Below, in pieces: positions 25,644 through 29,643 of a stretch of 33,864 nucleotides of DNA. Made by a program: the position numbers and the translations under genes. Origin of the DNA: a virus; the IMG/VR virus record IMGVR_UViG_3300036770_000349, positions 1-33,864 of that record; one strand, written 5' to 3'. How positions within the stretch are numbered: the stretch's first letter is position 1; each line of letters starts with the position of its first letter. Below the pieces are notes generated by a model. The model made no database searches, was not told where the DNA came from, and saw only the letters and a program-made list of their open reading frames with translations.

Positions 25644-25962
25644 ATGTGCCGCCCATCCGTCGGTTGGCCGAAATGGTGCGCCAAGTATCAAGGACGATGC
25701 GCTCTGTCTCGCGCTTATTCGCCATCTTGCAGTACAGCGCCACAGCCGCACAGTATCGCTCATGCGCTTCCTTGGTGGCGTGGTGGGTCGCGGCAATCGC
25801 TTGCCGCTCCGCCACCGTACCCTCGGCGTGAGTGAAGACGGCCTCACGGGTCGCCTTCCAGCCATACTCAGCACGCTCCATCTCAGCCTTCGCCAGCGCA
25901 CACGGCTCGTCAGTATCGACGAGATACCGCAGCGCCTTCTCGGCTCTCTCTTCGCTGATCAT
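25642..25962 (-). CDS. Conserved phage helical protein
   Basis: 106 residues, all helical and charged: ISEERAEKALRYLVDTDEPC, ALAKAEMERAEYGWKATREA, then a second helix pair ending DTWRTISANRRMG. I recognise this layout (a short helical protein ending in a WRT..A..R motif) from recombination operons of other phages, without known function. Its ATG overlaps the preceding stop (TAATG). Confidence 0.75.
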   Translation of the reverse strand: MISEERAEKALRYLVDTDEPCALAKAEMERAEYGWKATREAVFTHAEGTVAERQAIAATHHATKEAHERYCAAVALYCKMANKRETERIVLDTWRTISANRRMGGT

Positions 25963-26234
25963 TAGAACCCCAGCGGATCGTTCAGGTCAGCGCTTGCCCA
26001 GTTCTCTTCAGTCAGCCCTGCCGCTGGTGCGGGCTTCGGCGGAGCCTTTTGGCCTTCCTTCAACTGGACACTAATGGACAAAAAATTGTTACCGGCCTTT
26101 GAGGCTTTCTTCCACGCAGATAGTTTGTACTCGACGCCGCCCACGTTCAGGTCGCCGGTAAAGTCCGGGCGCTTCTCGTTGCCTTTTTTATCGTTTGCGA
26201 ACAGCACGCCACGGTTAGTGTTGTCGTAATTCAC
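25962..26234 (-). CDS. DUF736-like, possible single-strand DNA-binding protein
   Basis: 90 residues from a GTG with AAGGAG upstream. NRGVLFANDKKGNEKRPDFT, then GDLNVGGVEYKLSAWKKASK and FLSISVQLKEG resemble the OB-like core of DUF736. After a Pro-rich linker it ends SADLNDPLGF, an acidic tip with terminal Phe like that of bacterial SSB proteins. Between the helicase and exonuclease genes, an SSB role is plausible. GTGA overlap with the upstream stop. Confidence 0.65.
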   Translation of the reverse strand: MNYDNTNRGVLFANDKKGNEKRPDFTGDLNVGGVEYKLSAWKKASKAGNNFLSISVQLKEGQKAPPKPAPAAGLTEENWASADLNDPLGF

Positions 26235-26842
26235 AGATTCATCTCCTTCAGTTTAGAAACTTTATCATCTAACTCAGCCAAAAACTCTTGCACCTCTTTC
26301 TCAAGAACCATGATGCAGTCTGTATCACGCGGGATACGCACCACCAGCAGTTGTAACTCCTCGGGCATCCTCGGATCGTATGAGACCCAATCGCACCACT
26401 CCTTATCCGCGCAAGCCATCTGCCATTGCATTTGGTAAAAGTATTTTTGTGGCGGATCACGGTCAAAAAGATACTCAATATGCGTGGCTGTTGAGGGGCA
26501 TTTAATTTCAACGCAACCATTCACGCCCACTAATCCGTCTGGGCTGGCTCCTGCCATCTCGATTGCAGGGTGGTTGATAAAGCCCACCTCGGTGACGAGT
26601 TCACCGACCTTGGCGCTATAGGCATCACGCGCTGCGGCTTCCTGCTCGACGCCCCATTCCATTGCTGCGGAAGAAAACCCCTCCGTCGGCTTGCCGGTCA
26701 AGCGTTCGCATACCAGTTGCGCCATGTAGTTGTTGCGCGAAGCGGCGTAGCCGGTCTTCGTGCGTGCGACTACATCGGCTACCTTCGAGGCAGTCACCTT
26801 GCCCAGACGGGCGGTGTGCCACTCTGTTGTCCTTTGCTCCAT
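26231..26842 (-). CDS. YqaJ-type (lambda exonuclease family) recombination nuclease
   Basis: 203 residues from the ATG at 26842 (AGGAG seven bases upstream; a GTG lies one codon earlier). RTTEWHTARLGKVTASKVAD is the family start. AMEWGVEQEAAARDAYSAKV supplies an early metal-site Glu, GASPDGLVG the Asp (about D102) and VEIKCPS the E-x-K (about E112, K114). Resects double-strand ends 5' to 3', producing tails for the Erf protein encoded upstream. Confidence 0.9.
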   Translation of the reverse strand: MEQRTTEWHTARLGKVTASKVADVVARTKTGYAASRNNYMAQLVCERLTGKPTEGFSSAAMEWGVEQEAAARDAYSAKVGELVTEVGFINHPAIEMAGASPDGLVGVNGCVEIKCPSTATHIEYLFDRDPPQKYFYQMQWQMACADKEWCDWVSYDPRMPEELQLLVVRIPRDTDCIMVLEKEVQEFLAELDDKVSKLKEMNL

Positions 26843-27066
26843 CACTCTTCTCCTGTCTCCATGAGACGTTTAAGTTCTCGACACTCGCGCTCCAGGCGCT
26901 CCATCTTTTCTGTAACTACAACAAGTCGGCTAGTTGCCTCGTCCCGTTGCTCCAACACGCGCCTCAACTTCTCGGCCAACGCTTGCGACAATTCCGATGA
27001 GTCAGGAATCGCCATTGTGTGACCGATGATTTCGTAATCCGACATCAGCGCGTAATAGGGGGTCAT
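26842..27066 (-). CDS. Small coiled-coil protein
   Basis: 74 residues. After MTPYYALMSDYEIIGHTMAI comes a long heptad-like helix (LAEKLRRVLEQRDEATSRLV, TEKMERLERECRELKRLM). Starts with an ATGA overlap and ends overlapping the exonuclease start. No family recognised; a partner or chaperone of its neighbours is possible. Confidence 0.6.
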   Translation of the reverse strand: MTPYYALMSDYEIIGHTMAIPDSSELSQALAEKLRRVLEQRDEATSRLVVVTEKMERLERECRELKRLMETGEE

Positions 27067-27557: not shown

Positions 27558-27865
27558 AACTCTGGCACCTCGTACCATTTCAGGATGATCTTGGCGGCAT
27601 CGCGGTGGTCTCGCATCACGCGCAAATCCTTGGCCTTGTTCTTCTCAAAGAAGCCGGTAGAACAAGCGCCAGATTCCCGCTCTGCAATCATCTGATCCAT
27701 TGTTTCAATGGTGTTCGTCAGCGACCAGGCTACGATGTACGTCTCAACGTCACTCAGTATTTGCTTCACAAGTTGCTGCTCTTTCAGTTTGAGGCCAACT
27801 TGCTTTTCTTTTCGCTGAACAGACTTAGATGCACCTTTCGCTCGCTTGCGTTTAGACTTTTCCAT
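27554..27865 (-). CDS. Basic hypothetical protein overlapping erf
   Basis: 103 residues if it starts at the ATG at 27865, with GAGGAG eleven bases upstream; this overlaps the Erf C-terminus by 82 bases. The N-terminal 30 residues are Lys/Arg-rich (MEKSKRKRAKGASKSVQRKE). A GTG at 27769, just after the Erf stop, would remove that segment. The rest is helical with an Asp/Arg-rich end (RVMRDHRDAAKIILKWYEVP). Unknown function. Confidence 0.55.
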   Translation of the reverse strand: MEKSKRKRAKGASKSVQRKEKQVGLKLKEQQLVKQILSDVETYIVAWSLTNTIETMDQMIAERESGACSTGFFEKNKAKDLRVMRDHRDAAKIILKWYEVPEL

Positions 27866-28365
27866 ATTCCGTTTAACTCCTCGATAGTGGCTGCTAGTTG
27901 TACTGCCGCTTCAACGGCAGGATCGGTAGTGGCTGCGGCGACTTCATGCGTCTGCGAGTCGGCATCGTTGTCGCCTTCGGTCGGGATGCAGAACGCTTGG
28001 AAGGCGGCGTACTTGTAAGCGGCAGACATAGCCTTGTTACTGGCCTTGTCGCCTGAGTCCATCGCCTCACCTACCGTGATGACCGTATGCTTGCTGCCGT
28101 CTTCGGCGGCCACGAAGTCAAACTCCACGGTCAGCGTGACGTAGAACAGCGCAGTGCCTTGGCGGTTCTGGCGCTCGATAACCTGTCGGTCAGTCACGCG
28201 AGGCAGGATGCACAGGCCGTGCTTTGACAGCAGCGGCGAGAGCGCACCGTACACAGCGTCGATGCCACGGAAAGCGTAGCCCTGTGACTGGTTCTTGCTG
28301 TCTTTGCTAATGCCGATCTTGGATAGTTCGGCGGTGACAGAAGCAATCTTCTCGTAGACCTTCAT
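27784..28365 (-). CDS. erf: Erf-family single-strand annealing protein
   Basis: 193 residues. The ERF core (PF04404) is seen in MKVYEKIASVTAELSKIGIS, GYAFRGIDAVYGALSPLLSK, HGLCILPRV, ALFYVTLTVEFDFVAAEDGS, and VGEAMDSGDKASNKAMSAAY, then KYAAFQAFCIPTE. P22 Erf binds single strands and circularises terminally redundant phage DNA by annealing; with the YqaJ exonuclease in the same operon this makes a complete annealing pathway. The C-terminal 50 residues are variable. Confidence 0.9.
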   Translation of the reverse strand: MKVYEKIASVTAELSKIGISKDSKNQSQGYAFRGIDAVYGALSPLLSKHGLCILPRVTDRQVIERQNRQGTALFYVTLTVEFDFVAAEDGSKHTVITVGEAMDSGDKASNKAMSAAYKYAAFQAFCIPTEGDNDADSQTHEVAAATTDPAVEAAVQLAATIEELNGIWKSLNASERKVHLSLFSEKKSKLASN

Positions 28366-28574
28366 TGCGGATTCCTCAGTTTGGCGGATGCAGCGTCAAT
28401 CGCAGCGATGCACTCGGCAAATGCTTGATGCAGTTTGAAAGCGCCTTCGGCTTCGATGCGGTTGAGTTCGTTTAAGCCTTCGATGACGTTGAAGGCGGCG
28501 TGTTCGGCGCGGCAGTGCAACTCCATGAGTCGGTCACGTTCCTGCTCGGCCAAGATGCGGTAATCATCTTCCAT
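28362..28574 (-). CDS. First gene of the recombination operon, unknown helical protein
   Basis: 70 residues, helical: YRILAEQERDRLMELHCRAE, then HAAFNVIEGLNELNRIEAEG. AGGAG is seven bases before the ATG. It follows the divergent promoter at 28.6 kb and overlaps erf by ATGA. No family recognised. Confidence 0.65.
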   Translation of the reverse strand: MEDDYRILAEQERDRLMELHCRAEHAAFNVIEGLNELNRIEAEGAFKLHQAFAECIAAIDAASAKLRNPQ

Positions 28575-28586
28575 GTCTTTCTCCTA

Positions 28587-28648
28587 CGGGGCCAATCCCC
28601 GAAGTGCAGTATACTCCCGTTGACGATCCTGTCAACACCTGTTACTGT
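28587..28648. promoter_or_regulatory. Divergent overlapping promoters with central operator
   Basis: Minus strand: TTGACA (28635-28630), 16-base spacer, TATACT (28613-28608), driving the recombination operon. Plus strand: TTGACG (28620-28625), 17-base spacer, TACTGT (28643-28648), driving the Cro-like gene. Between and within both -35 boxes lies a perfect dyad GTTGAC-N6-GTCAAC (28619-28636). A CGGGG-CCAAT-CCCCG hairpin (28587-28601) falls in the minus-strand leader. One bound dimer would cover both -35 boxes. Confidence 0.75.
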
Positions 28649-28655
28649 GCAATCT

Positions 28656-28820
28656 ATGACACCGAAAAAACTACTGAAGATTTATGGCTCCCAGAGCGAG
28701 ATTGCTCGGGCGTTGGGCGTAACCAGGCAGGCTGTGCTGCGCTGGTTCAAAGAGGACAAGATTCCGCCTCTGCGCCTTTACCAGATTGAGTGCGTGCTGA
28801 AAGTTCGTGAAGGTGCTTGA
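28656..28820 (+). CDS. Cro/YdaS-like HTH regulator
   Basis: 54 residues: MTPKKLLKIYGSQSEIARAL, then GVTRQAVLRWFKEDKIPPLR and LYQIECVLK. It is a minimal helix-turn-helix of the Cro/YdaS type (SQSEIARALGVTRQAVLRW is the two-helix unit). The plus-strand -10 box ends only seven bases before the ATG, so the mRNA would be leaderless, as for lambda cI from PRM. It probably binds the adjacent GTTGAC/GTCAAC dyad. No larger CI-type repressor gene is visible. Confidence 0.8.
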   Translation: MTPKKLLKIYGSQSEIARALGVTRQAVLRWFKEDKIPPLRLYQIECVLKVREGA

Positions 28821-29643
28821 TTTGTTCAGCGGTATCGGCGGCTTTAGCCTTGGGCTTGAGCGTGCCGGTATGCAGACGGTAGCGTTCTGCGAGCCGAATA
28901 AGTTTTGCCAAGCCGTGCTGCACAAGCACTGGCCGGATGTGCCGATATACGAGGATGTACGTGACTTATCAGCAACTCGATTGGCTAACGATGGAGTCCG
29001 ATTTGACGTTATCTGCGGCGGATTCCCCTGCCAAGACATTAGCACTGCCGGAAAAGGCGCAGGACTTGCCGGTGAGCGATCAGGACTCTGGTGGGAATAC
29101 CACCGCCTCATCGCGGAAACGAGGCCGACCTGGGTCATTGCAGAAAATGTCGCGGCCTTACGCCATCGAGGACTGGATGAAGTTCTCCGCAGCCTATTTG
29201 AGATCGGGTACGACGCAGAATGGCACTGTATTCCCGCTTCAGCCCTTGGCGCCCCTCACCGTCGAGACCGAATCTGGATTGTGGCCTACCCCCACAGCGA
29301 ATCCGTCAAACGCTTGCAGTCTGGACGCTGGACTGAAGGAAGCAGAACGATTGCACCCACAAGGACGTTGGACGCTATGGAGTCAGGTAGCAGCGCAGGA
29401 GGTTTATGGTCGCAGGATGTGGCCGACGCCCGATGCGAGTCCTCACAAATATCGGCTTCAGGGCAACACCCAGCAATCCAAATCACTCAACGGAATACAT
29501 GGTGGGAAACTGAACCCGCAGTGGGTCGAGTGGCTGATGGGGTTCCCAATCGGCTGGACAGACTTAAAGCACTCGGGAACGCGGTAGTGCCGCAGATACC
29601 AGAACTCATAGGACGATGGATAAATGAACAATCCCGTAACTAA
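28807..29643 (+). CDS. DNA (cytosine-5) methyltransferase
   Basis: 278 residues from a GTG overlapping the regulator's end by 14 bases. Motif I VLDLFSGIGGFSLGLERAG (3-21), motif IV GGFPCQDIS with catalytic C75, motif VI ENV (113-115), motif VIII HRRDRIWIV (151-159), and motif X RLKALGNAVVPQI (252-264) are all present. The recognition region between VIII and X is short (about 75 residues). It likely protects phage DNA from host restriction. A second protein family is encoded in the +1 frame inside it (28937-29587). Confidence 0.93.
   Translation: MKVLDLFSGIGGFSLGLERAGMQTVAFCEPNKFCQAVLHKHWPDVPIYEDVRDLSATRLANDGVRFDVICGGFPCQDISTAGKGAGLAGERSGLWWEYHRLIAETRPTWVIAENVAALRHRGLDEVLRSLFEIGYDAEWHCIPASALGAPHRRDRIWIVAYPHSESVKRLQSGRWTEGSRTIAPTRTLDAMESGSSAGGLWSQDVADARCESSQISASGQHPAIQITQRNTWWETEPAVGRVADGVPNRLDRLKALGNAVVPQIPELIGRWINEQSRN
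28937..29587 (+). CDS. Nested WPTP/EWLMGFP protein in the +1 frame of the methyltransferase
   Basis: 216 residues from the ATG at 28937 (later ATGs at 28955 and 28991; 28991 fits the family start best as MESDLTLSAADSPAKTLALP). It is entirely inside the methyltransferase gene. It has two WPTP motifs (GLWPTPTANPSNAC, RMWPTPDASPHKYR) and ends LNPQWVEWLMGFPIGWTDLK. I recognise these, with the SPAKT start and the SGTTQNGTVFPLQPLAPLT block, from proteins found with phage cytosine methylase genes. The ORF is open from 28883. No clear ribosome site. Function unknown. Confidence 0.6.
   Translation: MCRYTRMYVTYQQLDWLTMESDLTLSAADSPAKTLALPEKAQDLPVSDQDSGGNTTASSRKRGRPGSLQKMSRPYAIEDWMKFSAAYLRSGTTQNGTVFPLQPLAPLTVETESGLWPTPTANPSNACSLDAGLKEAERLHPQGRWTLWSQVAAQEVYGRRMWPTPDASPHKYRLQGNTQQSKSLNGIHGGKLNPQWVEWLMGFPIGWTDLKHSGTR

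Follow-up and report, generated by a model that had tools for sequence, protein, structure and literature searches.

The window analysed here comprises 33,864 nt, positions 1 to 33,864 of IMG/VR record IMGVR_UViG_3300036770_000349. Two divergent groups of genes meet at an 81-bp intergenic region. The genes around it are:

25962-26234, minus strand: single-strand binding protein-like gene of the minus operon (phrog_18154, 5e-16)
26231-26845, minus strand: YqaJ-type exonuclease, same operon (PF09588, 8.1e-29)
27784-28365, minus strand: ERF single-strand annealing protein (PF04404, 4.9e-23; phrog_155)
28362-28574, minus strand: 70-aa gene, first of the minus operon (ORF list)
28656-28820, plus strand: 54-aa Cro-like repressor of N15/P22 type with recognition helix TRQAVLRW (PF14549, identity to N15 Cro, 2hin/6on0 fold)
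28807-29643, plus strand: C5 cytosine methyltransferase, second gene of the plus operon (PF00145, 4.7e-47)

The Cro-like protein and its genome

The preliminary description had placed a 54-residue Cro/YdaS-type protein on one side of this region and a recombination operon on the other. Both assignments hold: the minus strand carries the 70-aa, ERF and YqaJ exonuclease genes, and the small protein matches both PF14549 (P22_Cro) and the N15 Cro fold. P22_Cro is its best profile match (45.4 bits against a curated cut-off of 30.2, E 7e-12), with HTH_3 also matching behind it, and identity to N15 Cro and phiKO2 Cro is 39%. An AlphaFold2 model (pLDDT 89.4) contains four helices and superposes over 46 residues on N15 Cro, free and DNA-bound (2hin_A, rmsd 0.7 Å; 6on0_A, 0.8 Å). 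Foldseek assigns these matches a probability of 1.0, but an E-value of only 5e-3 to 1e-2, given such a short chain. No fifth helix is predicted. N15 Cro, with 71 residues, has one beyond the point at which the present protein stops, and dimerises through its C-terminal part. A longer upstream start is also listed for the ORF. By profile and predicted fold, the assignment as an N15/P22-type Cro is firm.

The virus apparently infects bacteria without lysogeny. Its structural module includes portal, terminase, major head and scaffold genes. Tyrosine integrase (PF00589) had no match in the window or in eight relatives, which are records of 31-38 kb and possibly incomplete. The absence of a CI-type repressor, already remarked on in the preliminary description, is borne out by the HTH_3 search, in which the 54-aa protein is the sole match in the window; each of the same eight possibly incomplete records likewise gave one match. 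The gene opposed to cro belongs to the ERF operon. A search for close relatives in bacterial genomes (prophages) gave, among the matches listed, four weak ones, with 40-63% identity over short stretches. The methyltransferase and cro genes overlap, the former beginning before cro ends. Many clade A relatives have a different end to cro, directly followed by the homologue of the gene at 29624, which suggests that the methyltransferase is a mobile insertion.

Interlocked promoters, dyad and leader

The intergenic region contains the following elements:

28587-28601, minus strand: hairpin CGGGG-ATTGG-CCCCG, at the place where the minus transcript is predicted to start (folding and relatives)
28608-28613, minus strand: -10 box TATACT of the recombination-operon promoter (promoter scan)
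28619-28636, no strand: dyad GTTGAC-GATCCT-GTCAAC (GTTGACGATCCTGTCAAC), proposed single Cro operator, one exact copy in the window, arms invariant in relatives
28620-28625, plus strand: -35 box TTGACG of the cro promoter, also the proposed left half-site (sequence and promoter scoring)
28630-28635, minus strand: -35 box TTGACA of the recombination-operon promoter, also the proposed right half-site (promoter scan)
28643-28648, plus strand: -10 box TACTGT of the cro promoter, preceded by TGT (extended -10; promoter scoring)

The minus promoter, TTGACA (28635-28630)-16 bp-TATACT (28613-28608), agrees with the sigma-70 consensus at 11 of 12 positions. The plus promoter, TTGACG-17 bp-TACTGT, agrees at 8 of 12 and is absent from a strict promoter scan. 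The -35 box of each promoter sits within the spacer of the other, and the earlier statement that the dyad at 28619-28636 holds both opposed boxes proved exact by sequence and promoter scoring. The -10 box of cro ends 7 nt ahead of the ATG and no Shine-Dalgarno sequence precedes the gene; therefore, the cro mRNA is predicted to be leaderless, beginning at or next to the AUG. In this it would resemble the cro mRNA of PY54, for which RACE placed the 5' end at the AUG (PMC4488713). The distance from -10 box to ATG is 6-8 nt in every relative scored except N15, and a leaderless cro mRNA looks like the rule of the family.

The dyad is not a rare object. The window contains 22 perfect 6+6 inverted repeats with a 6-bp gap, where its length alone would predict 8, and the dyad itself has four matches with up to two mismatches, against 1.4 expected. 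Moreover, 10 of its 12 arm bases lie inside the -35 boxes, five in each arm being the -35 consensus TTGAC. Since the boxes supply these bases, the dyad and the opposed -35 boxes are one observation and not two, and the idea that the dyad is significant by itself was rejected. It is thus no independent evidence of an operator; what it adds is its outer G28619 and C28636, which fall outside both hexamers, together with conservation and the comparison of relatives. The exact arrangement GTTGAC-N6-GTCAAC is nevertheless present once in the window, in keeping with the one dyad of the preliminary description, and no related operator copies were found there beyond it. Likewise, TTGAC-N0-12-GTCAA has a single occurrence in the window, and the dyad is the sole perfect 6+6 repeat with a gap of 0-10 in the 81-bp intergenic region. 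When the 16-bp frame of the N15 operator is laid on it (TTGACG-ATCC-TGTCAA, 28620-28635), the two -35 hexamers are exactly the half-sites, separated by 4 bp, and one further base matches on each side.

The hairpin is a separate feature, and the range of the preliminary description begins at 28587 because it sits there. It lies directly upstream of the Shine-Dalgarno sequence of the recombination operon. The folding energy of the leader (-8.7 kcal/mol, z -0.98) is not unusual. In relatives, a stem pair is altered on both sides (GGGG/CCCC to GAGG/CCTC) and the loop is nearly fixed. The hairpin was also considered as a known RNA family, and no Rfam match was found in 28300-29000 at E up to 1. One relative (L006) is without hairpin, leader and the beginning of the 70-aa gene just upstream of its cro start at 2748, and retains both promoters and the dyad; this may be an assembly error.

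Cassettes, palindromes and recognition helices

Conservation was assessed in clades A and B, with 20 distinct promoter regions in 162 occurrences (overlapping loci of one contig were counted apart). All 12 arm bases of the dyad are invariant in the 20 regions, the outer G and C included, while 21 of the 55 columns from hairpin to ATG vary, among them half of the dyad spacer. Nor is there any variation in the minus -10 box, at C28614 or at G28641-T28642, which leaves room for a reading with two operators.

A Cro-type gene is found next to a divergent early operon in many phages. From the 70-aa gene across the leader and hairpin to the minus -10 box (ending CCAGTATGTC), L137 and L133 are near-identical. 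Past this point the minus spacer, plus promoter, palindrome, cro and downstream genes all change together, and the TTGACA -35 box of the minus promoter is retained. The same kind of swap distinguishes L145 from L024, beginning at the end of the hairpin. These comparisons support the view that the palindrome travels with cro as a cassette, behind which the hairpin is kept. Further cassettes, found by scanning for the conserved hairpin and TTGACA, added the helices SRQAVAKW, YPQAIYQW, YPQVIYQW, YAQSIYQW and TRQVVYLW. All of them have a minus promoter of TTGACA, 16 or 17 bp and a -10 box, with the cro -10 box 6-8 nt before the ATG. The interlock of the two -35 boxes differs by cassette: the gap between hexamers is 4 or 5, or zero (TTGACTTGTCAA, L321/L226), or the boxes coincide fully. 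From sequence, the constant theme is opposed -35 boxes at one place, and the palindrome varies with the repressor. In eight loci (L158, L319, L332, L269, L315, L084, L237 and L357) the 7-bp TTGTCAA appears to be the -35 of both divergent promoters. In L145 and L084, a symmetrical array (ATACCAGnnnGCTTGTCAAGCnnnCTGGTAT) has the shared -35 at its centre and may represent two operators placed around it.

Palindromes were set against the recognition helices of the adjacent proteins. As a positive control, the dyad scan recovers the known OR3 of N15, TTATAG-N4-CTATAA (operators annotated in U45242), with helix TPGAVYQW. GTTTAG-N4-CTAAAC goes with TKGAVSQW, TATCAG-N4-CTGATA with HQSAVSQW and GTTAAG-N4-CTTAAC with TRQAISQW. 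The dyad with N6 accompanies TRQAVLRW in 31 of 31 distinct upstream regions. GTTGAC-N7-GTCAAC is found with TRQSINKW and SRQAIHKW (6/6 regions) and with SRQAVHVW (2/2), and the intact dyad occurs with no helix other than these four. The SRQAVHVW loci L357 and L360 (L358 carries the same region) deserve attention. Their plus promoter has another -35 box (TTGTCA-17-TATAGT), which leaves the left GTTGAC without that role. That this arm is kept is the best single evidence from sequence suggesting that the protein reads it, in one lineage. A scan with the L357 protein added solely a longer copy of a contig already in the set. Other relatives speak against a reading with one dyad for Cro: the arm gap is 6 here and 7 with the TRQS, SRQAI and SRQAVH helices; SRQAVAKW regions, with a similar helix, are without the left arm and show GTCAAC-N4-GTTGC; and TRAAVQQW relatives retain TTGACA-N5-TGTCAA with a different helix. 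A clean helix code cannot be claimed from these sequences. In TKGAVSQW-type loci L159, L161, L164, L168, L171, L172 and L173, GTTTAG-N4-CTAAAC lies over the minus -10 box, and a third GTTTAG half-site is present at the cro promoter.

The half-site gap is 4 bp in this phage and 5 bp in relatives with gap-7 arms. Lambda operators have a 5-bp gap between half-sites. Because 4 bp (N15) and 5 bp (lambda) are known Cro spacings, binding by a single dimer is sterically reasonable.

A proposed early-shutoff circuit and its alternatives

The region would be the control centre of the early genes, built on two divergent, overlapping sigma-70 promoters. Judging from the geometry, the overlap would admit one RNA polymerase at a time. 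The strong minus promoter would drive the operon of the 70-aa, ERF and exonuclease genes, and the weaker plus promoter a leaderless cro mRNA, whose start is placed by the position of the -10 box. As Cro accumulates, the putative dimer would bind the dyad, with the two -35 hexamers as half-sites, and block both promoters, producing negative autoregulation and an early shut-off of the recombination operon. Cro thus probably represses both divergent early promoters from one operator in the 16-bp N15-like frame, although we infer its binding, dimerisation and repressor action from the DNA sequence. Most likely, repression from the one site acts together with polymerase exclusion. The term genetic switch, used in the preliminary description, was too strong: with neither CI nor integrase found, no second state is visible, and negative autoregulation with early shut-off therefore fits better. 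The best reading of the sequence would be an early-shutoff circuit rather than a lysis-lysogeny switch.

A rather unlikely alternative is that the dyad is only a by-product of interlocked consensus -35 boxes, with regulation by polymerase competition and Cro binding elsewhere or having other targets. TTGAC..GTCAA does arise automatically from two opposed -35 boxes, their offset differs across cassettes (gap 4, 5, zero or coincident) and the TRAAVQQW relatives keep the arrangement with another helix. However, the invariant outer G and C belong to no -35 box, L357 retains a left arm that it does not need as a -35, and the palindrome changes with cro while the leader and the minus -10 box stay unchanged.

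The conserved arms could also be shared by two flanking 16-bp operators, one per promoter and 22 bp apart, occupied by two dimers, an arrangement that we judge improbable. The candidate sites are:

28609-28624: left operator GTATAC-TCCC-GTTGAC
28631-28646: right operator GTCAAC-ACCT-GTTACT

Sites with 4-bp gaps are found in many relatives (GTTTAG, GTTAAG, TATCAG, N15 TTATAG), and in SRQAVAKW relatives the right-hand place carries GTCAAC-N4-GTTGC. Outside the hexamers, C28614 and G28641-T28642 are the same throughout both clades while the 4-bp gaps vary, and the difference between arm gaps of 6 and 7 would cease to matter. The outer half-sites, however, match poorly (about 4/6 and 3/6) and coincide with -10 boxes, and the left one is common to the two Cro types of the L133/L137 swap. 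The left operator GTATAC-N4-GTTGAC as the sole site was weak on the same grounds, its outer half being the -10 box and common to both types. It is hardly credible that the 54-aa protein, instead of regulating this region, serves chiefly as a YdaS-like toxin or a factor aimed at the host. YdaS_toxin (PF15943) does pass its cut-off (41.9 against 30 bits), but P22_Cro outscores it, N15 Cro heads both the structural matches and the PDB sequence matches, and many phages have the gene at the same place next to a divergent early operon.

Lambda Cro represses its own promoter and, at PL, the recombination operon, and the cro promoter and recombination operon are likewise the proposed Cro targets here. 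Lambda has three sites at each of two control regions (OR and OL), PL and PR lie far apart and CI competes, whereas in this phage one region and one dyad would serve both directions. The preliminary description had called the arrangement simpler than the three-site lambda operators; one dyad is indeed all that is present, but single-operator Cro control has already been described in PY54 (PMC4488713) and phiKO2 (PMC4997575). These phages and N15 share the all-alpha Cro fold family with this one (PMC4488713; PMC4997575). In PY54 and phiKO2/N15, Cro binds one palindromic operator, OR3, located between divergent genes and in N15/phiKO2 16 bp long with a 4-bp gap (PMC4488713; PMC4997575), and PY54 Cro represses cI but probably not itself (PMC4488713). 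However, PY54 and phiKO2/N15 are temperate, and in them the gene opposed to cro is the prophage repressor (PMC4488713; PMC4997575), whereas here a recombination operon is opposed, no CI was found and both -35 boxes sit on the proposed operator. Overlapping divergent promoters under a regulator also control the conjugation genes of pLS20 (PMC4207663). There the regulators are different, the context is a plasmid and DNA looping belongs to the system; this locus gives no sign of looping.

The arrangement is therefore a compact relative of the textbook phage control circuit and not a new kind of switch. New here are a proposed operator coincident with interlocked -35 boxes in a CI-less phage and the modular exchange. 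A broader generalisation is offered tentatively, as falling short of probable: the two -35 hexamers may be Cro half-sites in a large group of apparently non-lysogenic phages, in which leader, hairpin and minus promoter would stay fixed while repressor gene, promoter and operator were swapped behind them as one cassette; the result would be immunity-like types of specificity in the absence of lysogeny. If the proposed circuit is true, few complete Cro circuits would be smaller; it would consist of a repressor of 54 residues, 16-18 bp of DNA and two promoters, with no antagonist. Among the relatives, helix and palindrome change in step next to an early recombination operon, a natural series that opens the long-standing question of a Cro recognition code to direct test. 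Another question raised here is why phages without visible lysogeny diversify the specificity of their repressor, as the immunity regions of temperate phages do.
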